Shown here one piece after another: positions 10,129 to 36,885 of a stretch of DNA of 38,128 nucleotides. The stretch covers positions 1 through 38,128 of the forward strand of contig CAIYUN010000047.1 of the NCBI GenBank assembly GCA_903929355.1, in the 5' to 3' direction. Source of the DNA: an uncultured Opitutaceae bacterium (GTDB taxonomy: Bacteria; Verrucomicrobiota; Verrucomicrobiia; Opitutales; Opitutaceae). The translations under genes and the position numbers were made by a program. The notes under the pieces were generated by a model. It was not told where the DNA came from, did not search any database, and worked only from the letters and a program-made list of their open reading frames with translations. How positions within the stretch are numbered: the first letter of the stretch is position 1; the number at the start of each line of letters is the position of its first letter.

Positions 10129-10261
10129 GGGGTGGGGGAGCGGTCCCGGCATAATCGGCCGTCAGCCGGTGTCAAAAGCCAACTCCCGTCGGTCGTGCCT
10201 CATATCGAAAATGTCGGCGGGGCGCATCCGGCTGGCGGAAAACGACTCGATCCGCAAAACT

Positions 10262-19376: not shown

Positions 19377-21641
19377 CTATCGTTCCTCCAACACGCTCAG
19401 CTCCGAGTCGGCGAGCCGCAGGCGGTTCGACAGCGCCAGCGCCAGTTGCTCAAAAATCTGCCGGCCAAACTCCGGGTTGGTCTTCGCCAGCGCATCAAAC
19501 CGTTCGCGCGACAGCACATAAAGTTCAACCGCGTTGGCCGCCTCGAGGTCCGCCGAGCGCCGCCGGTCGTCGAGAAACGCCATTTCGCCAAAAAAGTCAC
19601 CCCGACAGAAGGTGGCGATGTGGTGCCGGATCCCGCCCGCCAGGGGCAGCAGGGCGTGCGCCATTCCGCGGCGGACAAAATAAATTTCGTCCCCCGGCTC
19701 GCCGCTGGTAAAGATCCGGCCGCCCGGTGGCACCGTCACCGCGCGGACCATGCCTTCCAGCCCGGCCAGAGTCGCCGCGTCGAGCGTTTTGAAAACTTCA
19801 ATCTCCCTGAGCGCCAGCGGCGCCGCCTCTTCGCCTGGTCTCCACCCGGCTTCCTCCAGAATTTTGTCCTCCATCCATTCGAGCGCGGTGTCGCGGCTGG
19901 CAAACACCCGGATGCCGCGCCCGCCGCCGGCCAGCCCAAATTGCCGGAGATAGCCATCAATCTCGGCGCGTTCGGGCAGGTTTGACGGCATGCCACTGAA
20001 GAGGAGCTCTCCACCCCGTTCATCCAGGCGCGCCTTCATCTGCTCAAACAGGTGGGCGGCCGTGAAGTCCATTGAGTGGACTTTGCGCAGGTCGATCAGC
20101 ACAAACCGCTTTGTGGCCAGGTGGTCCTCGATTTCCGTGAAAAGCTGGTCTGTGGTCCCGAAAAACAGATCCCCCTGGAGTTGCACGACCCCGGCTTTCT
20201 GACCGTTCTGCGCAATCAGGTCGGTTTCCGCCTTGAGCCGCCGGCGCATCGAATGCACGGTCCGCAGGTCGAGGTTGCTGACAATCACCGACCCACGGAT
20301 CTGGTTGCGAATGTAGAGCAGGATCGCCAGGCAAATGCCCGCCGCCGACGCCGCGATCAGGCCGAACTGCGCCACAATCACCACCGTTGCGATCACCGCG
20401 AAATCCACTCGCGTCGCGGGATGCCGCACCAGCCGGAACATGCCGCGGTCAAACATCCGCCACGCCACCACCATGAGCACGCCCGCCAGTGCCGCGATCG
20501 GCACCCAGGCGATGAGCGGACTGCACAGCGTGAGGACGGCCACGACCAGCAGACCCTCCACCAGGCCGGATTTCAGCGTGCGCCCGCCGCTGGCGAGGTT
20601 GACCAGCGTCGGTCCCATCGTGCCCGAGCCCGGCATCCCGCCCACCATGAACGCCACCGCGTTCGCGGCTCCCTGCCCGAGGAGTTCGCGGTTGGAATTA
20701 TGCCGCCGGCGGGTGAGTGCGTCGAGGACCACCCCGGTTTTCAACGTGTCAATCGAGAGCAGCAGGGACAGCGTCAATGCCGGGACAAAAACCAGCTGGA
20801 GGTCCGCCATCCTCACCTGGAGCAACGTCCCGGCCCGGTCCCGCACGGCTCCAGGGAGCGATCCGGCGGTCTCGACCGGTCCGATCACCAGCGGATTGCC
20901 CGCCACCTGCAGCAGATCGTGCCGGCCCAGCGCGATCGCGAAATAGGCTGCGACGCCCGCGAACAGTCCCATGATTGCGGCCGGAATGCGCTGCGTGAAC
21001 CGTGGCGCCAGCGCCATCACCCCGATGGTCACCGCTCCGACCGCCACGCCCGGCCCGCTCCAGGCTTGGGGCGAAAGGAGCCCCTCTCCCCATGAAGCCC
21101 CTGGGGGCAGTCCGAGCAACTTCGGCAGCTGGCCGACCGCGATGATGACCGCCACACCGGACAGGTAGCCGGTTACCACCTGATGGGGCATATACTTGAT
21201 CAGTCGTCCGGCCCGCGCCGCCCCATAGCCGATTTGGAACAGGGCCGCCAGCAGCGCCGTCAATCCCAGCAGCGCGACCACCCGGCCGCTCGCCACGTTG
21301 CCGTGGGCGCCGAGGGTTACCGCCAAAGCCGCCAGCACCGCGGCCGCCGGCGCGCAGGGGGCCGAAATGAAGCCAGCATTGCGGCCAATCAACGGGGCCA
21401 CGATCCCGAGCGCCGCTGCCCCGACGATGCCGGCCCGCGCGCCCTCCGCCGCCAGCTGCGGATCGACCGCGGTGTAAACCAGCACACCGAACGCGATGGA
21501 CGACGGGAGGGCGACGAGCATCGCCGCCAGTCCGCCCCAACAATCGCCCGCGAGGCCCGGGCGGTTTGCGGGTTCCTCTCCAGCGGCAGGCTCGTTGGGC
21601 GGTGGGGCGTTCACTTCGGGGTTTTTCGCTGGATTTGCCAT
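19377..21641 (-). CDS. SulP/SLC26 anion transporter with STAS and cyclic-nucleotide-binding domains
   Basis: A 754-residue inner-membrane protein with three parts. The SLC26/SulP transport core (about residues 30-440) has 10 to 14 hydrophobic segments, LVALPSSIAFGVLVYTAV, GRNAGFISAPCAP and SIDTLKTGVVLDALTRRRHN. A STAS domain follows (about 470-600: VVQLQGDLFFGTTDQLF, FVLIDLRKVHSMDFTAAHLF). Last comes a cyclic-nucleotide-binding-type beta-barrel (about 625-740: GRIFTSGEPGDEIYFVRRGM, GDFFGEMAFLDDRRRSADLEA). The GE-MAFL...RRSA phosphate cassette looks intact. It probably moves sulfate, bicarbonate or dicarboxylate, with gating by a cyclic nucleotide. Substrate and ligand cannot be read. It lies 88 bases downstream of a DUF1737 gene on the same strand. 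Confidence 0.9.
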   Translation of the reverse strand: MANPAKNPEVNAPPPNEPAAGEEPANRPGLAGDCWGGLAAMLVALPSSIAFGVLVYTAVDPQLAAEGARAGIVGAAALGIVAPLIGRNAGFISAPCAPAAAVLAALAVTLGAHGNVASGRVVALLGLTALLAALFQIGYGAARAGRLIKYMPHQVVTGYLSGVAVIIAVGQLPKLLGLPPGASWGEGLLSPQAWSGPGVAVGAVTIGVMALAPRFTQRIPAAIMGLFAGVAAYFAIALGRHDLLQVAGNPLVIGPVETAGSLPGAVRDRAGTLLQVRMADLQLVFVPALTLSLLLSIDTLKTGVVLDALTRRRHNSNRELLGQGAANAVAFMVGGMPGSGTMGPTLVNLASGGRTLKSGLVEGLLVVAVLTLCSPLIAWVPIAALAGVLMVVAWRMFDRGMFRLVRHPATRVDFAVIATVVIVAQFGLIAASAAGICLAILLYIRNQIRGSVIVSNLDLRTVHSMRRRLKAETDLIAQNGQKAGVVQLQGDLFFGTTDQLFTEIEDHLATKRFVLIDLRKVHSMDFTAAHLFEQMKARLDERGGELLFSGMPSNLPERAEIDGYLRQFGLAGGGRGIRVFASRDTALEWMEDKILEEAGWRPGEEAAPLALREIEVFKTLDAATLAGLEGMVRAVTVPPGGRIFTSGEPGDEIYFVRRGMAHALLPLAGGIRHHIATFCRGDFFGEMAFLDDRRRSADLEAANAVELYVLSRERFDALAKTNPEFGRQIFEQLALALSNRLRLADSELSVLEER

Positions 21642-21729: not shown

Positions 21730-21936
21730 TTATGGCCCGACCGGTGGCCCTTGGGGTTTGTCGCGCTTGACCTTCACCATCGCCTGAAAGAGGCCGTCGG
21801 CGAGTTCATGGTTGTGCCGGGGTAGAATGATAAACGGGCCGTGCGGCTCCCAGCCCTGACGGATGAGTTCGTTGATCGTCTGCTCGAAGCGGGCGAGGGT
21901 CACATCTTCGATCACTTTGTATTCGAGGTATTGCAT
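21730..21936 (-). CDS. DUF1737 family small protein
   Basis: A 68-residue soluble protein beginning MQYLEYKVIEDVTLARFEQT. The pattern (a short beta strand, a helix with FEQTINELIRQGWEPHG, then FQAMVK) is that of the DUF1737 family, small proteins of unknown function. The ATG at 21936 is preferred over a longer frame starting at 22050, whose extra N-terminus is Cys/Arg/His-rich and unlike the family. It ends 88 bases before the SulP gene on the same strand, so the two may be cotranscribed. Confidence 0.7.
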   Translation of the reverse strand: MQYLEYKVIEDVTLARFEQTINELIRQGWEPHGPFIILPRHNHELADGLFQAMVKVKRDKPQGPPVGP

Positions 21937-22121
21937 ATTCCGGCCAGCGGGCCGCAGGTTGCCTTGCCGGTGGCACGCACTGGAACACGGCCGCCCATGA
22001 AGTTCAACTGCGGATGCATCCAACCGCAATATCTGCGGTGCGAAAGCCAAACCGTGCGGTCTTGGTGGCGGGCGGTGGGAAGGATTTTCTGGTGGCGTGA
22101 CCAGGGGTTGAGGTCCACACT

Positions 22122-22616
22122 TTGCCTGTGCCCCTCGCCCCCTCCCTCCATCAGCTCGACGAACTAATTGCGCGTCAGGCGCCGATCTCAGAGGTCAGGC
22201 CCAGGTTGGACGTGCTGCAGGCGAGCATCGCGACCCTGGAGCAGCGGGTGGTCGGGTTGGAGGCGAAAATCAAACAAGTCGAATCCGAGCGGGATCTTGC
22301 CGCCGGCATGCTGGAAGAGTCGGTGGAGGCACTCAAGGCGGCGCAGGCGGAATTGGTTTTGCTCAGGGGACCTTCCGTTTTGGAGCCTTCGGCCGTGCGG
22401 ATGCTGCAGCTGCTGGTGGAATCCGACTCGCCCTGCTCGGCCGAGGAAATGGCGGAGAAGCTCAGCCTGGACCTGGAGTTGGTGAAGCCGCATTTGGCCA
22501 CCCTCGTCGGCCGAGGGTTCATCCAGTGGGCGGGAATCGCGATGGACAGCAGCCCGCTTTCAAACGTGATCACCACCGCCGGGCGGGAATACGCCCGCAA
22601 ATCCGGTCCGGGGTGA
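22122..22616 (+). CDS. Hypothetical coiled-coil plus winged-helix protein
   Basis: A 164-residue protein not recognised at family level. Residues 20-80 form a strongly heptad-like helix (IATLEQRVVGLEAKIKQVES), so a coiled coil and oligomerisation are likely. Residues 90-155 look like a winged helix: SAVRMLQLLVESDSPCSAEE, then MAEKLSLDLELVKPHLATLV and GRGFIQWAG, with a C-terminal TTAGREYAR helix typical of MarR/ArsR-like readers. It could be a transcription regulator or a winged-helix protein-interaction module. The start is uncertain: TTG 22122 or GTG 22128. It converges with the polyphosphate kinase gene. Confidence 0.65.
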   Translation: MPVPLAPSLHQLDELIARQAPISEVRPRLDVLQASIATLEQRVVGLEAKIKQVESERDLAAGMLEESVEALKAAQAELVLLRGPSVLEPSAVRMLQLLVESDSPCSAEEMAEKLSLDLELVKPHLATLVGRGFIQWAGIAMDSSPLSNVITTAGREYARKSGPG

Positions 22617-22673: not shown

Positions 22674-24179
22674 CTATTTTTTCCTGGGGGGCTTGACAGT
22701 CCCGAGGGCGGCCTCGACGGCCAGGCAGAGGGTCCGCAGTACTTTGATGCGGGCGTGGTATTTGTTGTTGGCCTCGACCAGGGTCCAGGGCGCGAGGGAG
22801 GTCGAGGTGTGGTCCACCATGTCGCACACGGCGTGCTCGTAGGCGTCCCATTGCTTGCGGTTGCGCCAGTCCTCCTTGGTGATCTTGAACTGCTTGAACG
22901 CCGTTTTCGCGCGCAGTTGGAAACGCCGGAGCTGCTCCTCCTTGCTGATGGCGAGCCAGAATTTGACGACCACCATGTGATGACGCGCCAGCGCCTGCTC
23001 GAAGTCGTTGATTTCGACGTAAGCCCGATGCCAGTCGGCCTCCGCGCAAAACTTCTCCACCCGCTCGACCAGCACGCGGCCATACCAGGAGCGGTCGAAA
23101 AAGGCGAAGCGCCCGCGCCGCGGGAGCTGCCGCCAAAAACGCCAGAGGTAGGGTTGCGCTCGCTCCTCCTCGGTCGGGGCCGCGACCGGAAAACTTTGGT
23201 AGGAACGCGCATCGAGGGCGCCGGTCACGCGACGGAGGGCCCCGCCCTTCCCGGCGGCATCATTGCCCTCAAACACCGCGACCACCGCGAGCGCCTGGAA
23301 GCGCGGGTCGCGCGCGGCGGCATTGAGGCGTCCCTGCCACTTGGCCAGCTCCGTCTTGTATCGGTCCTTGGTCATCGGCTGGTCGAGTTTGAGCGCGCGC
23401 AGCGGGTTGAGCTGGTCCACCGGCAGGGCGAGCGGCGGGGTGTGAACTGGGAGGGTCTGGGCCGTTCCGTCCTTCAGACGGTCGCTGATCGCGGCCAGCA
23501 GGTGGCGGCCCACCGTCAGGGCCCGGTAGCGCGGTTCTGCGGCGGGAATCACGATCCAGGGGGCCTCTCCCATGGAGGTCTTGCGCAAAAACGGTTCGCA
23601 GACCCGGATAAACTTTGCATAGGACTTGAAGTACTCCCACTCGCGCTCCGTGACGCGCCAGCGGGTCAACGGGTTCTTTTCCAGTTCCCGGAACCGGCGC
23701 TTCTGCTGCGGCTTGGAGAGATGGAACCAGTATTTGAGCAGCAGAACGCCCTCGTCGCAGAGCATTTTTTCCAGGCGGACGATCTCGCTGATCTGTCTCG
23801 CGAATTCGCCCTCGCTGATCTCCCCGGTCACCCGCTGGATGACGGGCATGGTGTGCCAGGCGCCGAAAAAGACCCCGATCCTTCCCTTGGGCGGCAGCGC
23901 CCGCCAAAAGCGCCAGGCGGCGGGTCGCTCGGACTCCTCCTCCGTGGGCTCAAAGAAGACGGACGTGGAAATGTAACGGGAGTCCATCCACTCGTTGAGC
24001 AGATTGACCGTTTCGCCCTTGCCGGCGCCTTCGACACCCGCGATCAGGATCAGCACCGGAAACCGACCCCGGTCCTTCAGCTCAAGCTGTGCGTGGAGCA
24101 GCGCCTCCCGCAGGTTTGCCACCTCGCATTTGTAAGCGGCCTTGTCGACCTTGTGTTCCAGATTGGCGGATTCAAACAT
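22674..24179 (-). CDS. pap: Polyphosphate:AMP phosphotransferase (two-domain PPK2, class II)
   Basis: A 501-residue cytoplasmic kinase made of two PPK2 domains, the architecture of polyphosphate:AMP phosphotransferases (about 475-500 aa), which make ADP from AMP and polyphosphate. The C-terminal half (about 270-500) has an intact Walker A, EGNDAAGKGGALRR (Lys311), and the DRSWYGR Walker B block (Asp362). In the N-terminal half, Walker A is GVEGAGKGE (48-56), but the Walker B site reads FFGAWHT, without the Asp-Arg-Ser, so it is probably not catalytic; the family often shows this. Its ATG overlaps the end of the tandem adenylate kinase gene by eight bases (ATGTTTGA), which points to coupled translation. 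ADP made here is the adenylate kinase substrate. Confidence 0.9.
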   Translation of the reverse strand: MFESANLEHKVDKAAYKCEVANLREALLHAQLELKDRGRFPVLILIAGVEGAGKGETVNLLNEWMDSRYISTSVFFEPTEEESERPAAWRFWRALPPKGRIGVFFGAWHTMPVIQRVTGEISEGEFARQISEIVRLEKMLCDEGVLLLKYWFHLSKPQQKRRFRELEKNPLTRWRVTEREWEYFKSYAKFIRVCEPFLRKTSMGEAPWIVIPAAEPRYRALTVGRHLLAAISDRLKDGTAQTLPVHTPPLALPVDQLNPLRALKLDQPMTKDRYKTELAKWQGRLNAAARDPRFQALAVVAVFEGNDAAGKGGALRRVTGALDARSYQSFPVAAPTEEERAQPYLWRFWRQLPRRGRFAFFDRSWYGRVLVERVEKFCAEADWHRAYVEINDFEQALARHHMVVVKFWLAISKEEQLRRFQLRAKTAFKQFKITKEDWRNRKQWDAYEHAVCDMVDHTSTSLAPWTLVEANNKYHARIKVLRTLCLAVEAALGTVKPPRKK

Positions 24180-25626
24180 GGGAAAGGGAATGGGGTTGGG
24201 TGGGTCCGGCGAGGCGTGGCTGCGGCCGGTCCGCCAGCGACCGGGCGACCGCCAGGGTTCGGGCGGTCACGGCCGTGACGTTGCCCTCCCCCCCGATCTC
24301 CGCGACCAAGCTGGCCTGCTGGTAATACTCGAGGAGCGGGCCGGTTTGGGCGTGGAAGGTTCGCAGCCGGGCCCGTATCGTGACGGGATTGTCGTCGTCG
24401 CGCTGCTGAAGGGGGCCGCCACAGGCGTCACATATTCCGGACTTGGCGGGTGGTTTGAACTGTCGGTGATAGGGCGTCTGGCAATTACGGCAGACCAGGC
24501 GGCCCGAAAGCCGGTGCACAATCTCCTCGTCGGAAACCTTGAGGTAGATCACCCCGGCAAGACGGCGCCCGAGATGGGTGAGCATTTCCGTCAACGCCTC
24601 AGCTTGGGGGAGGTTGCGCGGAAACCCGTCGAGGACGAAACCCTTGGCCGTGTCCGGGCGACCCAGCCGCTCCTGAACCATCGCGTCGGTGACGTCGTCG
24701 GGCACCAGTTCGCCCCGGCTCATGTGGGTCTTGGCGAGTTTGCCCAAGTCGGTTTGCCGTTGAAGATTGTCGCGAAAGAGATCGCCCGTGGCGAGGTGAG
24801 GAATATGGAGCTGCTGGCAAAGCGCCTCCGCTTGGGTGCCCTTGCCACTGCCGGGGCCGCCGACCAGCACGAATCCCCCGCCGGCCGGCGGGGTGGGCCG
24901 GGCGGAAGATATTGGCAGAAGTTTGGGCAGCATCATCAGGGCTCTGGCGGAGGCAATAGCTGCCAGCGGATCGCGACGCACGATCTCGTCGATGGCCCGG
25001 CTGATGTCCGCATCCACCTGGTCACAGGCCGCCTCCGCCTCCACGACGGCGAGCCGGTTGGAGGAACGAAAGTATTCAAGCAAAGGGCCGGTGACCCGTT
25101 GGAAGGCCCGAAGGCGCAACTGGGCAAACGGCGGAAGATCGTCGGGGCGACGGTCAAGTTTACCCCCGCAACGGTCGCACACCCCCGCCCGCGCCGGTGG
25201 CTGAAACTCAGTGTGACAAGGAGCCCGGCAGTTTTCGCAGATCAACCGCCCGGCGAGCCGGCGGACAGCCGTCTCCGGGCTCACCCGCAGGAAAATGGCG
25301 GCGTCCAGGCGGCAATTCATCCCGGCGAGCACTTCATCCAGAAATCTGGCTTGGACGACCGTGCCCGGAAATCCATCGAACACCACACCCCGCTTTGCCG
25401 GGATGCTCATGAGGCAGGACTCGACCATGGCATCGACGAGTTCATCTGGCACAAGTTCACCCTGCTGCATGTGCTTCCGGGCAAGAAGACCCAGGGCGGA
25501 TTTTCGGGTCAGATTCTCACGCAAAAGGCCACCGATGTTGAGCGGATACAAATCGAATTTCCCGCCAATTCGGGAGAGATGGCTGCCTTTTCCTGAACCG
25601 GCGGGTCCGATCAGCGCAATGTTCAT
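24172..25626 (-). CDS. Tandem-fused (double) adenylate kinase
   Basis: A 484-residue protein of two complete adenylate kinase units; normal Adk is about 215 aa. The C-terminal unit (about 250-470) is canonical: P-loop GGPGSGKGT (Lys262), LATGDLFRDNL, DGFPRN with AMP-binding Arg337, and a zinc-type LID (Cys379, Cys382, Cys399, Cys402). The N-terminal unit (1-215) keeps the P-loop GPAGSGKG and LID cysteines (130, 133, 150, 153). However, TGD is replaced by IGG (31-33) and the DGFPR arginine by Gly88, both AMP-site residues, so it is probably impaired or regulatory. GGAGG-like GGAGGGG lies upstream of the ATG. It overlaps a 24-codon leader frame by ATGA, and overlaps the PAP gene downstream. It equilibrates 2 ADP with ATP plus AMP. 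Confidence 0.92.
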   Translation of the reverse strand: MNIALIGPAGSGKGSHLSRIGGKFDLYPLNIGGLLRENLTRKSALGLLARKHMQQGELVPDELVDAMVESCLMSIPAKRGVVFDGFPGTVVQARFLDEVLAGMNCRLDAAIFLRVSPETAVRRLAGRLICENCRAPCHTEFQPPARAGVCDRCGGKLDRRPDDLPPFAQLRLRAFQRVTGPLLEYFRSSNRLAVVEAEAACDQVDADISRAIDEIVRRDPLAAIASARALMMLPKLLPISSARPTPPAGGGFVLVGGPGSGKGTQAEALCQQLHIPHLATGDLFRDNLQRQTDLGKLAKTHMSRGELVPDDVTDAMVQERLGRPDTAKGFVLDGFPRNLPQAEALTEMLTHLGRRLAGVIYLKVSDEEIVHRLSGRLVCRNCQTPYHRQFKPPAKSGICDACGGPLQQRDDDNPVTIRARLRTFHAQTGPLLEYYQQASLVAEIGGEGNVTAVTARTLAVARSLADRPQPRLAGPTQPHSLSHV

Positions 25627-25697
25627 GGGCCTGCCCCTCCGGCCAAGGGAAGCTTGGCGACGCCAATTCCCGCCATCGGGTTTTCAGGTTGTTCCAT
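25623..25697 (-). CDS. Possible 24-residue leader peptide coupled to the adenylate kinase gene
   Basis: A short frame starting at ATG 25697 has one of the best Shine-Dalgarno sequences in the window (GAGGA, about 7 bases upstream). It encodes MEQPENPMAGIGVAKLPLAG then GAGP, and its stop overlaps the adenylate kinase start as ATGA. The position suggests a leader peptide or a translational coupler for the downstream genes. There is no run of one regulatory amino acid, so classic attenuation is not indicated. No homologue is recognised. Confidence 0.5.
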   Translation of the reverse strand: MEQPENPMAGIGVAKLPLAGGAGP

Positions 25698-27416: not shown

Positions 27417-29753
27417 TCAGCCGATCACCACGACCTCGTGGTCGAGGACCGACTTGAGCTCGAAACGGATCCAGCCGGCCTGCACCTGCGGGGCAAGACT
27501 GCCACCGGCCACCAGCAGGCGCAGCTCACGGGCCGCGATGCCGTCGGGCATCCTGATCGCGACTTGGATCGGCCCCACGGCAACCAACTCCTCCACGGGT
27601 GCGCGGCACGCCCCGGGGTTGGTGAGATTGACGAGGTGTAAGACCAGGCGAGCGGGCTGGCGGTAAAGATGGCAGTCAAACAGACCCGGTCCGGTCACGG
27701 TGAGGGGGATGTCATCGCGCGCGACCCAGCGCACGAGGTTGGCCAGCAGGTCCGCATGGTCGGGCAGATTGTCGCGTGCGTAACGCCGGTCGAGGTCGGC
27801 GGCGAGCCAGGCGACGCGGCCCGCGTTGGGTGGCTCATTGACGATCAGGCCTGGAATGTCGGTTTTGGACACGCGCATCCATGACAACTCCGGGGGGAAC
27901 GCCGGAAAAGGGGGGATAAACGTCAGCAGGACCTGGGCCCCGGGATCAACCATGACCGGCGTTAGCGTGCCGCCGAAGGCCAAAATGTCGGTTTCGTCGA
28001 AACCACGCAGCGCCGGGTACCGCGAGCCTGCGGCCGGCGGCTCCGTGGCGGTGTGTGGGCCGTCCATGCGGGCGCCGAGCGGGGGTGTGAGGCGCAGGTA
28101 GGTGTGGTCGTTGGCTCCGGCCAGCCTCCGGCGGGCGGCCTCGTCGCGCCAGTCGTGGCCGGCGGGCAGATGTACGCCCAACAGGTCCGCGAGCGCGAAA
28201 TCCGCCCGTACGTCGCCCCACTCGTCGCAGAGGGAGCTCTGGCCGGTGGCGAACAGGCCGCCGCCGGCCTGGACGAAGCGGCGGAGGCTGGCGGCCTGCG
28301 CGTCGGACATGGCGGCGAGATTGGGCAGAATGAGCGCGCGAAACTGCGCGGCGTCGCGTTCGATGTGGTCGAGGTGAACCGGCACAAACGGGATGCGGGC
28401 GCGGACCAGCGCCTGCATGACGCCTCGCGCCGGCAGGTCCACCATCAGCTCGGGGTCGTCGCGGCCGAAGAAGTCGGTGTGGCGTTGCGACCACACCACC
28501 CCGATGGTCGCCAGCGGCCGGCGGTTGACCAGGAACTCCTCGTTGGCCTGGTGCCATTGCATGACGGGACCGGCCGTCTTGAAGGCGCGCCGGTCCTCCT
28601 GCCACGCGCCGACATGGTGCCACCACGGCTGGATGCCACCCGCGAAGCCATTGAGCATCCATAACCGGGCCTCGGGCGCGGGCTTGGCGGTGAGGCGGAA
28701 GGTCGGGGCCGGGGCCTGGCTGGTGATCTGATACATGGCCATGCTCTCGGGCATGACCTTGTCCCAGCCGAGCAGGCCGTGGACGAGCGCGCCCGCCGCA
28801 CCGTTATGCGGGAAGCCGGTGTCGTTGGCGCGTCGCTGTTCGTCGAGCAGGATGAGCTCGGCCCGCGCGCAGATCTCCTTGAAGTCGCGGAACTGCTGGC
28901 ACTGCGCGGTCACCGTGCCGCCGTTCATGCCCACCCAGAGGCAGTCGGGCCCGCCGGCCTCGCGGGTGATGCGGTTGTTCGCGTCCCAAATCTCCAGGCG
29001 GCGGGCGTAGTTCCATTCGATCCACGCGCGGTAGGCCGGGTCGTTCCAATTGCGTGCCTGCGGCAGCCCCCGGCCGCTGCGGGCCAGGAACTGGTCGCGG
29101 CAGTTGGCGCAAAAACAGATGTTGTCCCGCGCCAGTCCGCTCCAGCTGTTGTCGGCAAACCCCTCCGGTCGGTATAGCGTGGCGATCTCGCGCAGCAGGG
29201 CCGGGATGTGTTCGGTGTAGTAGGGGCTGTTGACGCACGAGACGTAGAGCTCGCGGTTGCGATAGGGCCGGCCGTTGGCGTCGAGCGCGAACCAGTCGGG
29301 GTGCGCGTGGTAAAAGTCCTCATGCGCGCTGTTCGAGTCCATCCGGGCGAAGACCGCCAGCCCGTCGTCGTGGGCGGCACGGCACAGCTCACCGAACAGG
29401 TCGCGGTCGCCGAGAAACTCTGCCCGCCGGTGCAGGGGCACCTGCGTCGGGTAGTAGGCGACGATGCCGCCGGCGTTGATGACGACCCCCTGCACCGCAG
29501 TGCGTTTCCAATACGCCCGCCACCACTTGACGTCGTAGCGGGTCGGGTCGATCTCGGTGATGTTGGTCTGCCCCCACCGGAGGGTGCGGCGATACCACGG
29601 CGTGGGTGCTGTCGGGGTGGCGGCGTGGGGCGGGGTGACGGCGGCGAAAGCGGGCAGCCGGGCGGACGCCAGCATAGCTCCGGCGACAGCGGATTTCTTC
29701 AAAAACGCCCGGCGGGTCTCGTCGGTGGGGGAGTCGGGAGGCGCAGGGGGCAT
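27417..29753 (-). CDS. Tat-exported glycoside-hydrolase-like protein with trimerisation-like domain
   Basis: A 778-residue protein with a twin-arginine signal (RRAFLKKSAVAGAML, Arg14-Arg15). A TIM-barrel region covers about 55-400 and resembles the 'hypothetical glycosyl hydrolase' group GHL6 and GH42-like enzymes: WWRAYWKRTAVQGVVINAGG, VFARMDSNSAHEDFYHAHPD, CFCANCRDQF. A Rossmann-like domain of the GH42 trimerisation type follows (about 430-600: GVVWSQRHTDFFGRDDPEL, RALILPNLAAMSDAQAASLR). The C-terminus is beta-rich. Carbohydrate activity is plausible, but the substrate is unknown and I cannot assign catalytic acids with certainty. Tat export suggests it folds in the cytoplasm. It stands upstream of no obvious partner; a Dabb gene lies upstream on the same strand, about 96 bases away. 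Confidence 0.8.
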   Translation of the reverse strand: MPPAPPDSPTDETRRAFLKKSAVAGAMLASARLPAFAAVTPPHAATPTAPTPWYRRTLRWGQTNITEIDPTRYDVKWWRAYWKRTAVQGVVINAGGIVAYYPTQVPLHRRAEFLGDRDLFGELCRAAHDDGLAVFARMDSNSAHEDFYHAHPDWFALDANGRPYRNRELYVSCVNSPYYTEHIPALLREIATLYRPEGFADNSWSGLARDNICFCANCRDQFLARSGRGLPQARNWNDPAYRAWIEWNYARRLEIWDANNRITREAGGPDCLWVGMNGGTVTAQCQQFRDFKEICARAELILLDEQRRANDTGFPHNGAAGALVHGLLGWDKVMPESMAMYQITSQAPAPTFRLTAKPAPEARLWMLNGFAGGIQPWWHHVGAWQEDRRAFKTAGPVMQWHQANEEFLVNRRPLATIGVVWSQRHTDFFGRDDPELMVDLPARGVMQALVRARIPFVPVHLDHIERDAAQFRALILPNLAAMSDAQAASLRRFVQAGGGLFATGQSSLCDEWGDVRADFALADLLGVHLPAGHDWRDEAARRRLAGANDHTYLRLTPPLGARMDGPHTATEPPAAGSRYPALRGFDETDILAFGGTLTPVMVDPGAQVLLTFIPPFPAFPPELSWMRVSKTDIPGLIVNEPPNAGRVAWLAADLDRRYARDNLPDHADLLANLVRWVARDDIPLTVTGPGLFDCHLYRQPARLVLHLVNLTNPGACRAPVEELVAVGPIQVAIRMPDGIAARELRLLVAGGSLAPQVQAGWIRFELKSVLDHEVVVIG

Positions 29754-29760
29754 GGGGAAT

Positions 29761-29835
29761 CAGAGGCCAGACGTCAGCTGTCAGAAGTCAGATGTCAGAA
29801 ATCAGACGCCAGATGTCAGAGGGCAGAATTCAGAG
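29761..29835. repeat. CAGATGTCAGAAATCAGACG-type heptamer repeat
   Basis: Successive CAGACGT, CAGCTGT, CAGAAGT, CAGATGT, CAGAAAT, CAGACGC, CAGATGT and CAGAGGG units have period 7. The tract lies between the GH-like gene and the Dabb gene and reads in the opposite orientation to the tract at 13862. Confidence 0.8.
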
Positions 29836-29849
29836 GTTGCCGCGGCCCC

Positions 29850-30167
29850 TCAGGCTGGCCGGGCGTCGTCCGCGTCGTAGATCTGCACGCGCTGCCAGCG
29901 GTCCTTGAACTGCGCGACAAAGGCGAGGTGCAGCGGATCGGCCTGGTAGGCGTCGTGCGCCGCCAGGTCGGCGAAAACGCAGGTGATCGCAAAATCATAC
30001 GAGGCGTCCACGACTGCCCGCGGCGGCGTTGTCGCCGGTCGACCGACATAGTAGGCCACCAGCGATGAGATCGGGCGCAACGACTCGAGCCCGTCGCGGC
30101 GGAACTCCTCGCATTGGGCCGGGGTGAGACCCGGCTTCAGATAGAAAAACACCGTGTGGACGAGCAT
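29850..30167 (-). CDS. Dabb (stress-responsive A/B barrel) domain protein
   Basis: A 105-residue small dimeric alpha/beta-barrel protein. The start MLVHTVFFYLKPGLTPAQCE, the SLVAYYVGRPA strand, YDFAITCVFADLAAHDAYQA and DPLHLAFVAQF fit the Dabb family. Members range from plant stress proteins to bacterial proteins of unknown role, often near sugar-catabolism genes. ATG 30167 is preceded by a G-run (GGGGGG) that may act as a ribosome site; an upstream frame to 30254 runs through a palindromic repeat and looks non-coding. Confidence 0.85.
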   Translation of the reverse strand: MLVHTVFFYLKPGLTPAQCEEFRRDGLESLRPISSLVAYYVGRPATTPPRAVVDASYDFAITCVFADLAAHDAYQADPLHLAFVAQFKDRWQRVQIYDADDARPA

Positions 30168-30234
30168 CCCCCCAAAGCACCCCGACCTCGGATGTTCCGC
30201 GAGCAAAAAATCATGCCCTTGGCGTCTGCAGCTG

Positions 30235-30262
30235 GTGGAACGCGTTGACCCCAACGCGTTGG
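30235..30262. repeat. Palindromic repeat AACGCGTTG-ACC-CAACGCGTT, copy 2
   Basis: Arms AACGCGTTG (30239-30247) and CAACGCGTT (30252-30260) share the GTGGA flank and trailing GG with the copy at 5181-5208. It lies between the divergent Dabb and DUF971 genes. Confidence 0.75.
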
Positions 30263-30433
30263 GCTGTGCCGATCAACGTCCTCCCGGGCTTCCGCCTCGG
30301 TGGATCGGAGCCTCCTGCTGGCCTTCGTTCCATTCGTAATCTTCTGTTCAAATCCGTTCGATGGTGGTCACGGGCCAAAAAGTGCTTTCCCCGCCCGATT
30401 CGTCGGGACAACCTGACCCTCACGCCCAGCTCC

Positions 30434-30745
30434 ATGCACACTCCCGCCAACATCCAGCTCATCGGTCACGAAGTCGCCATCATTTGGAGCGACGGTGCGG
30501 AGACCTATTTTCCGATGGAGCGACTTCGTGCCGCCTCGCCGAGCGCGGAGAACATCGGCGAGCGCGACATCCTGGGAAACCAATACGGCGGTGACGGTCC
30601 GAAGCAGTTTCCCGGCGTGACCGTGCTCGGCTGGGAGCAGGTCGGCAACTATGCCCTGCGCTTCACCTTCAGCGACGGCCACGCCACCGGGCTCTACAGC
30701 TATGATTTCCTGCGCAAACTTGCCACCCACCTCGCCCAGTCCTAA
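30434..30745 (+). CDS. DUF971 (GBBH-like N-terminal domain) protein
   Basis: A 103-residue protein with the DUF971 pattern: a short strand pair (IQLIGHEVAIIWSDGAETYF), a Pro-Met-Glu-Arg-Leu-Arg segment, FPGVTVLGWEQVGNYALRFT and DGHATGLYSYDFLRKLA. This domain occurs alone or fused to gamma-butyrobetaine hydroxylase and ApbC-type proteins, and often sits near Fe-S or ubiquinone functions. Its role is unresolved. ATG 30434 starts the domain. hisI follows about 105 bases downstream beyond a heptamer repeat. Confidence 0.85.
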   Translation: MHTPANIQLIGHEVAIIWSDGAETYFPMERLRAASPSAENIGERDILGNQYGGDGPKQFPGVTVLGWEQVGNYALRFTFSDGHATGLYSYDFLRKLATHLAQS

Positions 30746-30809
30746 CTCCCGTTTGCGCTTCCCCGGCTTCTGGCTTTTCATTTCCGCCTTCGTCTTCCGA
30801 CCTCCCTCC

Positions 30810-30845
30810 TCTGACATCTGGCTTCCGGCCTCTGACATCTGATTC
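30810..30845. repeat. CTGACATCTGGCTTCCGGCC heptamer repeat
   Basis: CTGACAT, CTGGCTT, CCGGCCT, CTGACAT and CTGATTC units lie just before the hisI start. They have the same orientation as the tract at 13862. Confidence 0.75.
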
Positions 30846-30850
30846 CACCC

Positions 30851-31297
30851 ATGCCCACCTTTCCCATCCGCACCACCACCGCCGAGGTTGAGCTCGGCGC
30901 CACGCTCCAGCCCAAATTTGGGTCCGACGGCCTCATCCCGTGCATCACGCAGGACGGGGTGACTGGCGAGGTGCTGATGTTCGCGTTCATGAATGCCGAG
31001 TCGCTCGCCCGCACGCTCCAGACCAAAAAGGCGACCTACTGGAGCCGCTCGCGCCAGAAACTCTGGGTGAAGGGAGAGGAGTCGGGCAACGTGCAGCTCG
31101 TGCAGGAACTCCGCGTGGACTGCGACCAGGACGTGTTGCTGCTGAAGGTGACCCAGAGCGGCCCGGCCAATGCGTCGTGCCATAATGGCTTCAAGTCGTG
31201 TTTCTATCGCCAGCTCGTGGACCTCGAGGCACCCGACTTCAAGCTGAGCTTTATCGCCAAACCGCTCTTCGACCCGGCCAAGGTTTATAAGAAATAG
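30851..31297 (+). CDS. hisI: Phosphoribosyl-AMP cyclohydrolase
   Basis: HisI opens the purine ring of phosphoribosyl-AMP, the third step of histidine synthesis. The 148-residue monofunctional form has the family core: [52 protein letters not shown] and the [13 protein letters not shown] zinc-binding segment. No phosphoribosyl-ATP pyrophosphatase (HisE) domain is fused. It is separated from hisD-hisC-hisB-hisH by about 11.5 kb, and hisE, hisG, hisA and hisF are not in the window. Confidence 0.95.
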
Positions 31298-31354
31298 GGC
31301 CGGACCGGGGGGCATCCGCCTTCGCCAAGCTACGGCGCGAAAAGCCAACCTCGG

Positions 31355-32734
31355 CTAAGGACGCGGCGGGGGCAGCCCGGTTTTCACCAGGGCGTCGAGC
31401 CATTCCTGCGAGCGAACCTGGTAGGGTTTTTGCACCCCGACCGGCGTGTCCTGGTGCGGGGAGTTGATCATGGGGAGCGGCTCGACCGGCCCCTGCATCT
31501 GGTTGATGGCCCGCCACACGCCGGGCGCGGGGCTGGTCTCATCGAGCAAGCCCATCGCCACCAGTGCGGGAGCCTTCGTGTGATAGGAAAAGTTCATCGG
31601 GTCAAAGTACTGCGCGGTCTCCAGAATCTTTGGGTTGGCCTTGGACTTGGCATCGCGCGCCCAGTCGGGGAATCCGGCCGCGCTGCCATGCTCCGGGCCG
31701 GTCACGTCACAGCTCGACGGCACCATGACGATGACCGCCGAGATCTTGGGGTAGAGCCCGGCCATGGAGAGAGATTGCTGGCCGCCCATGCTCGTGCCCT
31801 GCACGACGAGGGTTTTGCCGTCCCAGTCATCCCGTGCGGTCAGATAATCCAAGGCCCGGTAGGCGGAGAGATACATGGCGAGGAAATAGCTTTTCTCGCG
31901 GTCCGTCTGGCCGATGGATTGGAAGTTCCCCAACGGCCCCCGGTTAAGTTCGTCATAATAGGCCTTGGGTTGGTCGAAGGCGACATCGTGCGGCTCGATG
32001 TTGAGAGCGAGCCAGCCTTCCGCCGCCCGGTCAACGACCCGTGAGGGTGGCAGCGAGTAGGTGCCGCCCGCCCACTGGAGGATCAGTAGCGCCGGGTGCT
32101 TGCCTCCGCCCGTAGGTTTGGCGAGCTGGCCTTGGATGTGTGCGCCATTGATGTTGTCCATGGTGATCTTGAAGTAATCCACCATGGGTTTGGGACTGTC
32201 GGCTGCCGTCAGCTGTGCGTTCGCGGGAATTTCATGCAGTTGTTTGATCTTGGCCTCCCACCAAGTGTCGAAATCGGCCGGCCGGGGGGACGAGGGCTGG
32301 AGCTTTTGCGGCGCGACCAAGGCACCTGCGACTGCGCTGCCGCCACCCCGCCCGCCCCGCCCGCCCCGGTTCCCGCGTGCTGGCACGGTAGCGGCGGGAT
32401 CTGCTGGTGCCGGCGTGGCCCCGGTGCCCCGGATGTTGAGTAAAATTGTGCCCGGCTCGTCGAGCGACGTCTCGATCGTGCCCTTGCCGGAGGTGAGATC
32501 GAGCGTGTCGGTCTTGAAGACCGTCAGGCCGTTCTTTTTCAACGTGTAGGTGGCGGAAGCGAACTGGCCACCGGTCACGGCGACGTTCCAACCAACTTTC
32601 TCACCGACCTCGTATGAGGCGGTCGGCTTGAGCGGAGTCAGCGTGAGCTGCTGGGCGCGGGTGATCGGAATGGCGAAAAGAAGGGCGATAGCCGCGAACA
32701 GACGCTGGCGGGAAATGAATGGGCAGGGTCGCAT
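31355..32734 (-). CDS. Exported acetyl xylan esterase-like alpha/beta hydrolase (CE7 type)
   Basis: A 459-residue secreted esterase with a signal peptide (residues 1-27). An Ig-like N-terminal beta domain covers about 28-105, followed by a low-complexity RGNRGGRGGRGGGS linker. The alpha/beta hydrolase domain is of the acetyl xylan esterase/cephalosporin deacetylase type. Motifs are RPADFDTWW, VQGTSMGGQQS with nucleophile Ser315, the GLLDETSPAPG aspartate and the NSPHQ histidine. CE7 enzymes remove acetyl groups from short xylo- or other oligosaccharides. It lies 80 bases downstream of the GH2 gene in the same direction, so it may deacetylate mannan or xylan fragments before hydrolysis. Most CE7 enzymes are cytoplasmic, so export is unusual. 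Confidence 0.87.
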   Translation of the reverse strand: MRPCPFISRQRLFAAIALLFAIPITRAQQLTLTPLKPTASYEVGEKVGWNVAVTGGQFASATYTLKKNGLTVFKTDTLDLTSGKGTIETSLDEPGTILLNIRGTGATPAPADPAATVPARGNRGGRGGRGGGSAVAGALVAPQKLQPSSPRPADFDTWWEAKIKQLHEIPANAQLTAADSPKPMVDYFKITMDNINGAHIQGQLAKPTGGGKHPALLILQWAGGTYSLPPSRVVDRAAEGWLALNIEPHDVAFDQPKAYYDELNRGPLGNFQSIGQTDREKSYFLAMYLSAYRALDYLTARDDWDGKTLVVQGTSMGGQQSLSMAGLYPKISAVIVMVPSSCDVTGPEHGSAAGFPDWARDAKSKANPKILETAQYFDPMNFSYHTKAPALVAMGLLDETSPAPGVWRAINQMQGPVEPLPMINSPHQDTPVGVQKPYQVRSQEWLDALVKTGLPPPRP

Positions 32735-32750
32735 GGTGGGGGAGGGGGGG

Positions 32751-32790
32751 ATCAGATGTCAGGGTCAGAGGCCGGAGGGCGAAGGGCGGA
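32751..32790. repeat. CAGATGTCAGGGTCAGAGGC repeat
   Basis: CAGATGT, CAGGGT, CAGAGGC, CGGAGGG, CGAAGGG and CGGAGT units belong to the heptamer family. The tract lies in the 80-base gap between the CE7 gene and the GH2 gene. Confidence 0.65.
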
Positions 32791-32814
32791 GTGGGAAAGA
32801 GAACGAGGGGAACC

Positions 32815-35295
32815 TCACTCATAGCTGTCCACCAGTGAGCGCCAGGTCAGGACGCGTTGCAAGCGCGCCCGCGACTGCGGCCGGTTGAGTTCCACCTCGA
32901 CCGTCTTGGGCTCGCCGGGGTAAAGCTCGAACCAGTTGTCGCTGGCGTGATGTGCGATCCCCGGCAGGTCAAAGCTGAAGCGGTGCTGGAACGTCGTCGA
33001 GGTGAAGGTGAGGGCTGTGCGGCGCGGTGAAATCAGGCGAACAGTGGCCTTGGTGCGCGCCTGCGGCAGCGCGAGAAAACGCGGTGGCGCGAAGAACGCC
33101 GAGTCCTCGCTGACCGGACGGCCGGCGACCTCCAGCGTGACCCGGAGGACGACGTGGTCGCGGCCGTGGCGCGCGAGCAGCGGAGCGAGCCGGAGCGTTT
33201 TTTGACGCACGCTTTGGCCGTGACGCAGGGTCACGGCCTTGCGTCCGCGGAGCAACACCCGGCCGTCGAGGAGGAACAGATCCCACCGCAACGTGCCGCG
33301 CGCGGGGGTCGGCGCGTCGCAGACGGTGTAAAGCCGGGCCTCGCTCACGGTGGACCGGCGGTAGTTGCCGATGATCGTCGTCTCGTCGCCCGGCACCTCG
33401 ACGCTGACGGCCCGGGGGGCGAAAAACCGGCGGGCGAGATGGTGCAGCGCCTTCCACCGGCCGGTGAACTCAAGGGAACTCCATGAGGCGACGGGCCAGC
33501 AATCGTTAAGCTGCCAGTACACCGCGCCCATGCAGCGCGGCATGAGCCGGCGGTAGTGCTCCACTCCCGTCTGCATGCAATGGGCCTGGTTGAGCTGCGA
33601 GAGCCAGATGAGCGCGGCCTGATCCTTGGGGAAACGATAGCGGCGCGACACATAGTCGAGGATGATCTGGTTTCCCGCGCGGTTCTTCTGGTGGTTTTCC
33701 ATCGCGGGGCCGAAAACATTGGTGTCGTCGGACGGACAGAAGGTCGCCTGCGTCGCGGTCGAGCTGTAGCTCTGCATCCCGAATTCCGACACAAAACGGA
33801 ATTTCCATTTCTCGTAGTCCTTCACCGGATGGCGCGCGTGCCACACGTCCCAATAATGCGTGTCCCCGCGCTGTTCGCCGGCGGCGTGGTCGGCCGCAAT
33901 GTCGCCGCGCCATGGCGACGATGGCCACCACGGCGTCACTCCGTCGTGCGTTGCGATCAACGGCGGCAGCGCCTCGTGAAACACCCGGTCGTAAGCCGCC
34001 CGCAGGCGGGCATGCTCCGGCTTGACCAGGTCGGCGGCGTTGCAGCTCCAGACCTCGTTGTTGCCACACCAGAGGGCGAGGCACGCGCGGTGGCGGAGCC
34101 GCCGGACCTGGAACGCAGCCTCGGCGCGCACGCTGGCGACGAACGCCCGGTCGCCCGGATAGGCCGTGCAGCCAAACATGAGGTCCTGCCAGACGAGCAG
34201 GCCCAGCTCGTCGCACAGGTCGTAAAAATCCTCGCTCTCGTAGATGCCTCCGCCCCACACGCGCACCAGGTTCATGTTCGCCGCGACGGCCGCGCGCAGA
34301 TCCCGGGCGTAGTCCGCTCGACCCAACCCGGCGACGAAGGAATGGGCTGGGATCCAGTTGGCGCCCTTGGCGAAGACCGGGCGGTTGTTGACCACAAATT
34401 GAAACGACTCGCCCCATTGGTCCGGCTGCCGGTCGAGTACCAGCGTGCGCAACCCGAGCCGGCGCGACCAGACCCCGATCACCCGGCCGGCCCGCCGCGC
34501 CTCCAGTCGCAAAGTGTAAAGCGGCTGTGCACCCTGGCCACTGGGCCACCAGAGCTCGGCCTGCCGGACCACGGCGGACAGGTCTTCGATCCTTGCGACC
34601 ACGCGACCGGCGAGCGCGACCGTGCCGGTGTAGGTCACCGTGCGATCCCGGCGCGCGAGCTCGGGCGCGAAGGCCAGCGTCACGTCGCCGCCGGCCGCGT
34701 GGGTCTGGGTGACCCGCACGGTCTCCAGGCGGTTGCCACTCCACGCCTCCAGCCGCAGGTCGCGCCAGATGCCGGCCGTCACGAACCGCGGGCCCCAGTC
34801 CCAGCCGAACTGGCATTGCTGCTTGCGGATGACGGTGCAGCGGCCGACGGGATCGTTGAATTCACGCGGCGCGTGGCCCGGCCGGTGCGTCCGGATATGC
34901 TGCATCGCGCTCCCGAAGCGCACCGTCAGCTCGTTTTTTCCCGCGCGCAGGAGCGGTCCGACTTTCCAGCGGTGACCGATAAACATGTTGTCCGTCCGGG
35001 CGACCTCACGGCCGTTGAGCCGGACCGTGGCGAGGGTGTCGAGGCCGTCGGCCACCAGCTCGACCACCTCCGCAGCGAGCAGGGACGCCGACACCGTGAA
35101 GACGGCCCGATACTCCCAGTCGCGCTCCTCGATCCATTGGAGGGCCGCCTCGTTGGCGCCCCAAAACGGGTCGGGAATCCGGCCCGCGCGTCGCAGGTCG
35201 GTGTGGACGCAGCCGGGCACCATGGCCGGCAGCCAGGTCCGGCCCGAGCAGTCGCGAAACTGCCAGGTGGCGGAGGCGAGGGGAAGGGTTTTCAC
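32815..35295 (-). CDS. Beta-mannosidase (GH2)
   Basis: An 826-residue GH2 enzyme of the beta-mannosidase subgroup. It has a sugar-binding beta domain (about 1-190, including WEYRAVFTV and VHTDLRRAGRIPDPFWG), an Ig-like domain, a TIM barrel and C-terminal beta domains. The catalytic acid/base is Glu414 in CGNNEVW and the nucleophile Glu504 in FVSEFGMQS. The KGANWIPAH and NLVRVWGGGIYE motifs fit mannosidases. It removes terminal beta-mannose from mannan or glycan oligosaccharides. There is no signal peptide, so it is probably cytoplasmic. The start is GTG at 35295, only 12 bases after the GH1 stop, so the two are cotranscribed. Confidence 0.93.
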   Translation of the reverse strand: MKTLPLASATWQFRDCSGRTWLPAMVPGCVHTDLRRAGRIPDPFWGANEAALQWIEERDWEYRAVFTVSASLLAAEVVELVADGLDTLATVRLNGREVARTDNMFIGHRWKVGPLLRAGKNELTVRFGSAMQHIRTHRPGHAPREFNDPVGRCTVIRKQQCQFGWDWGPRFVTAGIWRDLRLEAWSGNRLETVRVTQTHAAGGDVTLAFAPELARRDRTVTYTGTVALAGRVVARIEDLSAVVRQAELWWPSGQGAQPLYTLRLEARRAGRVIGVWSRRLGLRTLVLDRQPDQWGESFQFVVNNRPVFAKGANWIPAHSFVAGLGRADYARDLRAAVAANMNLVRVWGGGIYESEDFYDLCDELGLLVWQDLMFGCTAYPGDRAFVASVRAEAAFQVRRLRHRACLALWCGNNEVWSCNAADLVKPEHARLRAAYDRVFHEALPPLIATHDGVTPWWPSSPWRGDIAADHAAGEQRGDTHYWDVWHARHPVKDYEKWKFRFVSEFGMQSYSSTATQATFCPSDDTNVFGPAMENHQKNRAGNQIILDYVSRRYRFPKDQAALIWLSQLNQAHCMQTGVEHYRRLMPRCMGAVYWQLNDCWPVASWSSLEFTGRWKALHHLARRFFAPRAVSVEVPGDETTIIGNYRRSTVSEARLYTVCDAPTPARGTLRWDLFLLDGRVLLRGRKAVTLRHGQSVRQKTLRLAPLLARHGRDHVVLRVTLEVAGRPVSEDSAFFAPPRFLALPQARTKATVRLISPRRTALTFTSTTFQHRFSFDLPGIAHHASDNWFELYPGEPKTVEVELNRPQSRARLQRVLTWRSLVDSYE

Positions 35296-35307
35296 GGGGA
35301 AGGAGGT

Positions 35308-36669: not shown

Positions 36670-36885
36670 TCGTTTGATTCGCCCACGCGACCGGGGGCAC
36701 ACCCCAGTCAGTCAATGGTTTGGCCGCCGTCAACGGTCTGAACCTTCCCGTGGTGGCCTGGTACCGGACTGACCGGACGGGAGCCGCGTTCCAGAATTTT
36801 CTAAAATGTAACGGGTAAGGGCCGATATTGGCCCCACGCCTGGACCTGCCCCGGCCGTTTTTTACCCCGCAGCCAACCCCCCTCC

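Follow-up and report, generated by a model that had tools for sequence, protein, structure and literature searches.

Introduction

Why should two fused adenylate kinase domains be encoded by a gene that overlaps one for a polyphosphate-dependent phosphotransferase? The question is raised by a locus in an uncultured Opitutaceae bacterium (GenBank assembly GCA_903929355.1), whose contig CAIYUN010000047.1, positions 1 to 38,128 of the forward strand, is the stretch of DNA analysed here and is called the window; within a draft genome of 3.8 Mb and 96% completeness it forms contig C47. Two minus-strand open reading frames (ORFs) overlap at 24172-24179, one (24172-25626) encoding a double adenylate kinase (dAdk; Adk, adenylate kinase) of 484 aa and the other (22674-24179) a polyphosphate:AMP phosphotransferase (PAP) of 501 aa. 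An earlier note on this DNA had described a tandem Adk overlapping a two-domain PPK2 by eight bases, and the ORF coordinates and the Pfam and NCBIfam matches agree on this; the outer end that it gave, 25697, belongs to a different frame, where it marks the ATG of a 24-codon ORF, and dAdk itself starts in frame at 25626. Its description of the module as a dAdk-PAP pair stands, with the amendment that it omitted a third gene, usual in the unit, for a transporter of the SulP family. The features concerned are:

24172..25626, minus strand: dAdk, tandem (double) adenylate kinase, 484 aa (PF00406 and ADK_lid in two stretches each; TIGR01351; AlphaFold2)
24892..25626, minus strand: N-terminal Adk half of dAdk, residues 1-245 (residue comparison; long tree branch, 1.14)
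24172..24891, minus strand: C-terminal Adk half of dAdk, residues 246-484 (21 active-site positions unchanged; four lid cysteines)
22674..24179, minus strand: PAP, two-domain class II PPK2, polyphosphate:AMP phosphotransferase, 501 aa (TIGR03708; 3czp; C-domain motifs)
24172..24179, minus strand: 8-base overlap ATGTTTGA, in which ATG starts PAP and TGA ends dAdk
19377..21641, minus strand: SulP-STAS-cNMP anion transporter, 754 aa (PF00916, PF01740 and PF00027 by Pfam)

Conservation of the dAdk-PAP-SulP gene set

A sample of 120 genomes of the family contained a full-length dAdk in ten, including the window's own, the other nine being 50-57% identical to it. A scan of GTDB contigs gave 31 relatives, ten of them full length (L018-L027; L020 and L021, whose contigs match G150:C143 and G190:C390 in length, entered the count only once). 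Across the class, 19 of the 384 genomes searched had a relative at E <= 1e-60, of which ten have doubles (three without the lid cysteines in the N-terminal half, or N-half) and nine a single related Adk only. In total 25 distinct dAdks were compared, the window's and 24 others; judged by the lid cysteines, three of the 24 have a lidless N-half.

Against the possibility, raised in the earlier note, that orthologues are never adjacent, the neighbourhood search in other genomes placed PAP directly downstream of dAdk on the same strand in 12 of the 25 (11 of 24 without the window), at gaps of -8 to 97 nt, and the -8 spacing of the window recurs in locus L053. Eight family genomes, belonging to seven genera, share this same-strand spacing, as do the metagenome-assembled genome (MAG) contigs L019, L023 and L024 and G523, a genome of another family; within the family, eight of the ten dAdk genomes have an adjacent PAP. 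SulP follows PAP in ten of the 12 dAdk-PAP loci, the window included, at gaps of 5 to 151 nt and, in the window, of 1032 nt with two small ORFs in between. The SulP that follows PAP in L019 is cut by the contig end, and G170 and G190, the remaining two of the 12, carry a SulP orthologue on a different contig. Three genomes keep PAP-SulP without an adjacent dAdk, and in one locus without PAP (L056) SulP directly follows dAdk, at 192 nt. The dAdk-PAP-SulP set is a conserved cassette whose layout is non-accidental.

Co-occurrence in genomes follows the same pattern, as judged by tests that treat genomes as unrelated, so that their p-values are too good. SulP (E <= 1e-60) was present in 14 of the 120 family genomes, namely in 9/10 with dAdk versus 5/110 without (Fisher p 2e-9), and across the class a dAdk-like kinase, found in 19 of 384 genomes, was present in 8 of the 11 SulP genomes (E <= 1e-100; p 1e-9). 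When PAPs of every type are counted, their link to dAdk in the family is weak (9/10 versus 64/110, p 0.04). A tree of 38 distinct PAP rows splits into two deep clades, each with support of 100/100: a clade of 18 rows holds all 12 dAdk-linked copies together with three SulP-linked and three unlinked ones, and none of the 20 rows in the other is linked; G147 and G149 carry PAPs of both clades. PAPs of the cassette clade occur in eight of ten dAdk genomes versus 6/110 others (p 1.5e-7), a comparison in which the 14 positive genomes rest on the PAP tree with a row each, and in which the 42 of 76 family PAP places that are unplaced on the tree, being lower-scoring, were taken as not of the cassette type from their profile matches and from dAdk and SulP lying on other contigs or places. 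A PAP search of this phylum gave a match in 60 of 387 genomes, with loci taken from the best 30 places only; 21 further PAP loci (L140-L160; 11 of other classes, 10 of the family) showed no Adk or SulP within flanks of at most ~1.5 kb, and six further SulP loci outside the family (L171-L176) showed no Adk or PAP nearby.

Domains and active sites of the encoded proteins

The window dAdk matches TIGR01351 (adk) with 389 bits over both halves, above the cut-off of 168, and its AlphaFold2 model (mean predicted local distance difference test score 83, predicted template modelling score 0.75) shows one series of helices and strands in both halves, with a loose linker between them at 220-245. Among the 50 PDB fold matches listed, 49 span about one half and one, 9fqr_G8, spans the whole chain. 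The C-terminal half (C-half) has no change at 21 active-site positions and has four lid cysteines; it keeps Lys13, Arg36, Arg88, Arg119, Arg123, Arg156 and Arg167, which we take to be the catalytic Adk residues. Arg88 is retained in 25/25 C-halves and in 23/25 N-halves, the exceptions being the window and L081 (R88S, G14T, D33K), and ten other N-halves carry single changes at 15, 31 or 33. These residues suggest that most relatives are working doubles, with both halves active-looking.

The window PAP scores 697.5 bits against TIGR03708 (polyphosphate:AMP phosphotransferase; cut-off 547.65), stays below the cut-off of NF050016, another equivalog so named (387.8 of 800), and matches PF03976 (PPK2) in two stretches. 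Its best solved relative is 3czp, which is P. aeruginosa PA3455 according to passages of a PPK2 review (PMC8776046); the same passages give the class rule that a glycine after Walker B marks a class II PPK2. The C-domain of the window PAP carries D307 in GNDAAGKGG and G367 in DRSWYG, invariant in 15 aligned PAPs, and because the class II glycine is present and the C-terminal active site is intact, phosphorylation of AMP to ADP is its likely reaction. The N-domain is without a Walker B Asp, as read from the alignment, which fits PA3455, whose N-domain is described as inactive in those passages (PMC8776046).

The third protein combines PF00916 (Sulfate_transp) and PF01740 (STAS) with a C-terminal cNMP domain (PF00027) and scores far under the NCBIfam cut-offs for named SulP proteins (179.6 of 880 for BicA, 173.2 of 614 for DauA and 162.7 of 380.45 for sulP). 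Its best solved match is 6ki1, entered as a low-affinity sulfate transporter and presumably BicA.

Proposed function

The Adk and PAP reactions are each established for their families. From gene content, adjacency, co-occurrence and residues we infer the reactions, their direction, the co-expression and the SulP substrate as follows. PAP would phosphorylate AMP to ADP at the expense of polyphosphate; adenylate kinase would convert 2 ADP into ATP and AMP, and that AMP would go round again, so that the net process would be AMP plus two phosphates of polyphosphate to ATP. The overlap or tight spacing would keep dAdk and PAP co-expressed. SulP would probably import an anion (sulfate, bicarbonate or a carboxylate) that yields AMP when it is activated, polyphosphate serving as reserve power. 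On balance we favor an AMP-recharging cassette powered by polyphosphate as the probable function of the gene set. The fuller proposal, in which such a cassette, built on an anciently duplicated Adk, gives ATP to and removes AMP from one particular uptake-and-activation route, is offered tentatively.

Several observations weigh against polyphosphate-powered recharging. PAP is absent next to 13 of the 25 dAdks, and polyphosphate is therefore not obligatory. Outside the family the genes lie side by side in only two of eight SulP genomes, G523 (through PAP) and G446 (with a single Adk), and the C-half of the dAdk in G523 (L078) has a gap at Arg156 and Asp158. The N-half of the window dAdk carries R88G, T31I, D33G and T15S (E. 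coli numbering) and has lost the AMP-site TGD motif. Changes at Arg88 cripple E. coli Adk, and with Arg88 and the TGD motif missing the N-half is probably weak or dead and this copy therefore probably has one good Adk site. The double Adk of the earlier note thus holds as two Adk domains in one chain and probably not as a working double kinase here; in the window genome the C-half probably does the Adk work. PPK1 was not found in five of the ten family dAdk genomes, which are drafts 76 to 98% complete, and it too is not obligatory. In addition, the genome encodes a second, divergent Adk-like protein, so that the basic phosphorylation of AMP may not depend on dAdk.

This Adk-like protein of 425 aa (L003:721-1998, minus strand) has a P-loop and DGFPRT. 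A PF00406 search of the window's own genome found no other canonical Adk, the only match besides the two dAdk halves being one of 39 bits in this protein; we had considered dAdk as the genome's only Adk and rejected the idea in view of this protein and the spread of its relatives in the order. PF00406 matches occur in 126 of 132 genomes of the order and are, among the matches listed, mostly of this weak type in frames of ~400 aa; a relative 51-76% identical was present in 18/18 fetched loci, one of which (L182) yielded no full frame. The divergent protein is perhaps the housekeeping Adk of these bacteria. As separate observations, the divergent proteins of ~410 aa (L003, L177-L194) do not have the usual TGD AMP-site motif, and their long C-terminal part matches no Pfam family; a second kind of tandem Adk, apparently lidless and weakly similar to the window's, occurs as ~400-aa frames with domains ~580 bases apart in G021, G028, G055, G072, G084 and G095, and also in G133, G141, G186, G232 and others. 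On the polyphosphate side, PAP is the only PPK2 found in the window's own genome, and PPK1, which would supply the polyphosphate, is present once; in G170 a PPK1 gene (L052:11941-14226, minus strand) lies ~1.9 kb from the cassette PAP.

Alternative explanations

The strongest alternative is that dAdk is an accessory remover of AMP for AMP-forming reactions, such as those of acyl-CoA synthetases or sulfate activation, that are tied to solute uptake, with PAP as an optional helper and polyphosphate as incidental. The 13 dAdks without an adjacent PAP argue for it, as do two Chloroflexota MAGs (L018 and L027) in which dAdk lies in an operon whose genes encode, in this order, an AMP-forming CoA synthetase, DUF4212 (the 87-aa gene of L018 by Pfam), an SSF symporter, dAdk, a DUF294-CBS-cNMP protein and a histidine kinase, with no PAP in the stretch; here Pfam was run on the L018 genes and L027 was matched by BLAST clusters, and wrong binning is possible for both MAGs. 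In G013 a dAdk-SulP pair occurs in a genome in which no PPK2 was found, with an acetyl-CoA synthetase ~5.5 kb from dAdk, beyond SulP and on the other strand, and in G446 a single Adk that shares 59.5% identity with the C-half comes 302 nt after SulP. Against optional help from PAP stand its place as the commonest direct neighbor of dAdk (12/25), the single PAP lineage that holds all linked copies, and the three genomes that retain PAP-SulP without an adjacent dAdk. The other loci without PAP also have no common AMP-forming neighbor: 20 neighbor proteins of these and related loci are otherwise unlike by Pfam, among them a type II secretion ATPase, DUF1501, PSD1, an ABC transporter, PEPCK, Dus, histidine kinases, a sulfatase and lipases, some being matchless. 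We consider AMP removal with optional PAP a real possibility, and one clearly less probable than the polyphosphate-powered cassette.

A link to acetyl-CoA synthetase as a general rule was tried and rejected, being seen in only the two Chloroflexota loci and, more loosely, in G013. Elsewhere, dAdk without PAP lies near sulfatase-type genes in L022 and L077 (by BLAST clustering in L022 and by Pfam on one protein in L077), and in two genomes of genus g101 a 2-oxoacid:ferredoxin oxidoreductase follows SulP (Pfam on one). Because the Chloroflexota dAdk sits in a CoA-synthetase and symporter operon without PAP, the comparison suggests that AMP recharging is the core job of dAdk and polyphosphate one power source for it. 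We propose that the common thread may be AMP arising from the uptake and activation of an anion or carboxylate.

A second alternative is that the genes share a neighborhood through mobility or inheritance and have no joint function, and the trees bear on it. In an Adk tree of 76 bacterial rows (25 N-halves, 25 C-halves and 26 single Adks; eukaryotic sequences were left out), the 25 N-halves form one clade with support of 100/100, and the C-halves stand beside it, mixed with some single Adks of other families of the class, with 2 changes on the tree. This placement of the halves would be explained by one duplication that gave the double Adk, with some later losses or with singles that predate it. 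The end branch of the window N-half measures 1.14 and that of its C-half 0.43; the C-half is nearest two Chloroflexota copies (66% identity with L027), and a full-length dAdk was found in none of the four other sampled genomes of the window's genus, for which reasons the window dAdk copy may have been acquired sideways. This patchy distribution, and the position of the window copies outside the family's cluster in both the Adk and PAP trees, would suit mere co-travel; the same-strand spacing of -8 to 97 nt across seven genera, three MAG contigs and G523, and the substrates that the enzymes share, argue against it and make it improbable.

Least probable of all, and in our judgment very unlikely, is that the two enzymes work in the opposite direction and make polyphosphate in place of PPK1, with Adk forming ADP from ATP and AMP and PAP lengthening polyphosphate from ADP: passages of the PPK2 review describe one class II PAP, of A. 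johnsonii, as also making polyphosphate (PMC8776046), and the five dAdk genomes in which PPK1 was not found include G188, 98% complete, but PPK1, present in 81 of the 120 family genomes, is not significantly rarer with dAdk (5/10 versus 76/110, p 0.29), the window genome has it, and PA3455, the closest solved homologue, is reported in the same passages to have no detectable polyphosphate synthesis (PMC8776046).

Relation to known systems

A PPK/Adk pair with PAP activity is known from E. coli, where the genes are unlinked. The window PAP is homologous over its full length to known PAPs of class II (A. johnsonii PAP, P. aeruginosa PA3455, 3czp) and like them has two fused PPK2 domains, a class II glycine and no Walker B Asp in the N-domain; it differs in belonging to a separate PAP clade and in being encoded in an operon-like set together with a double Adk and, usually, SulP. 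The PPK2 review does not use the word 'operon', and passages of it mention no Adk neighbor (PMC8776046). Adenylate kinase and polyphosphate enzymes have been used together for ATP regeneration, according to parts of PMC10012588 and PMC8616028, and ADK, adenosine kinase and PAP have been placed on one artificial scaffold (a passage of PMC8616028). These in vitro systems use the same two reactions in engineered mixtures, whereas the pair described here is natural, adjacent and conserved.

The animal tandem Adks AK5 and AK8 likewise have two Adk domains in one chain, both reported active in passages of PMC10056885. The 9fqr_G8 fold match, the only full-length one among the 50 listed, is a 475-aa chain of the bovine sperm axoneme and presumably AK8; its identity to dAdk is 22% and its domain arrangement differs (root-mean-square deviation 26.6 over the whole chain). 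Since the N-halves form one clade among bacterial Adks, in a tree that leaves eukaryotic sequences outside, the bacterial duplication is likely independent of that in AK5 and AK8. The window SulP shares the Sulfate_transp and STAS domains with SulP transporters such as BicA, DauA and the SulP permeases and is set apart from BicA, DauA and sulP by its extra cNMP domain and its low NCBIfam scores. The earlier note had thought the fused double Adk with PAP to be an undescribed unit, and open-access papers, among the matches listed, described neither a double Adk from bacteria nor an operon of Adk and PAP. Both reactions and tandem Adks are already known; the natural, conserved dAdk-PAP-SulP gene set is new as far as those papers show.

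Other features of the window

Around and between the cassette genes lie the following ORFs:

21730..22050, minus strand: small protein of 106 aa between PAP and SulP (no Pfam match)
22122-22616, plus strand: ORF of 164 aa, convergent with PAP, with a coiled-coil-like N-part and a winged-helix-like C-part by eye (no Pfam match)
25623-25697, minus strand: 24-codon ORF in another frame than dAdk, with GAGGA upstream and an ATGA overlap with the dAdk start

The 24-codon ORF is a possible leader peptide candidate. A homologue of the 106-aa protein (63% over 67 aa) lies directly upstream of dAdk on the opposite strand in L024 (L024:4675-4947, minus strand). The window PAP is without a Shine-Dalgarno sequence and the window dAdk has GGAGG; an argument for translational coupling from the missing sequence was set aside as weak, many relatives having none before either gene. 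Scans for promoters (1 site versus 0.7 expected) and terminators (11 versus 6.6 expected, none clearly placed) were not used. The cassette is surrounded by a polysaccharide-degradation region: GH43, GHL6, GH2 and GH1 enzymes and an acetyl xylan esterase-like protein are encoded at window positions 8458-10152 and 27417-36702 on the minus strand.

Significance

PAP with adenylate kinase is an established test-tube route from polyphosphate to ATP, but what it does in living cells is not well established; a natural, conserved gene set that holds both enzymes and a transporter gives a genetic handle on whether cells run on polyphosphate in this way. The bacterial double Adk, a fusion with a single origin and halves that are mostly intact, is useful for enzyme study and for ATP-regeneration technology. 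If the tentative proposal of a single uptake-and-activation route is true, a nucleotide-sensing SulP, or in Chloroflexota a symporter and an AMP-forming CoA synthetase, would serve that route, and stored polyphosphate would be spent locally on the uptake and activation of one nutrient.

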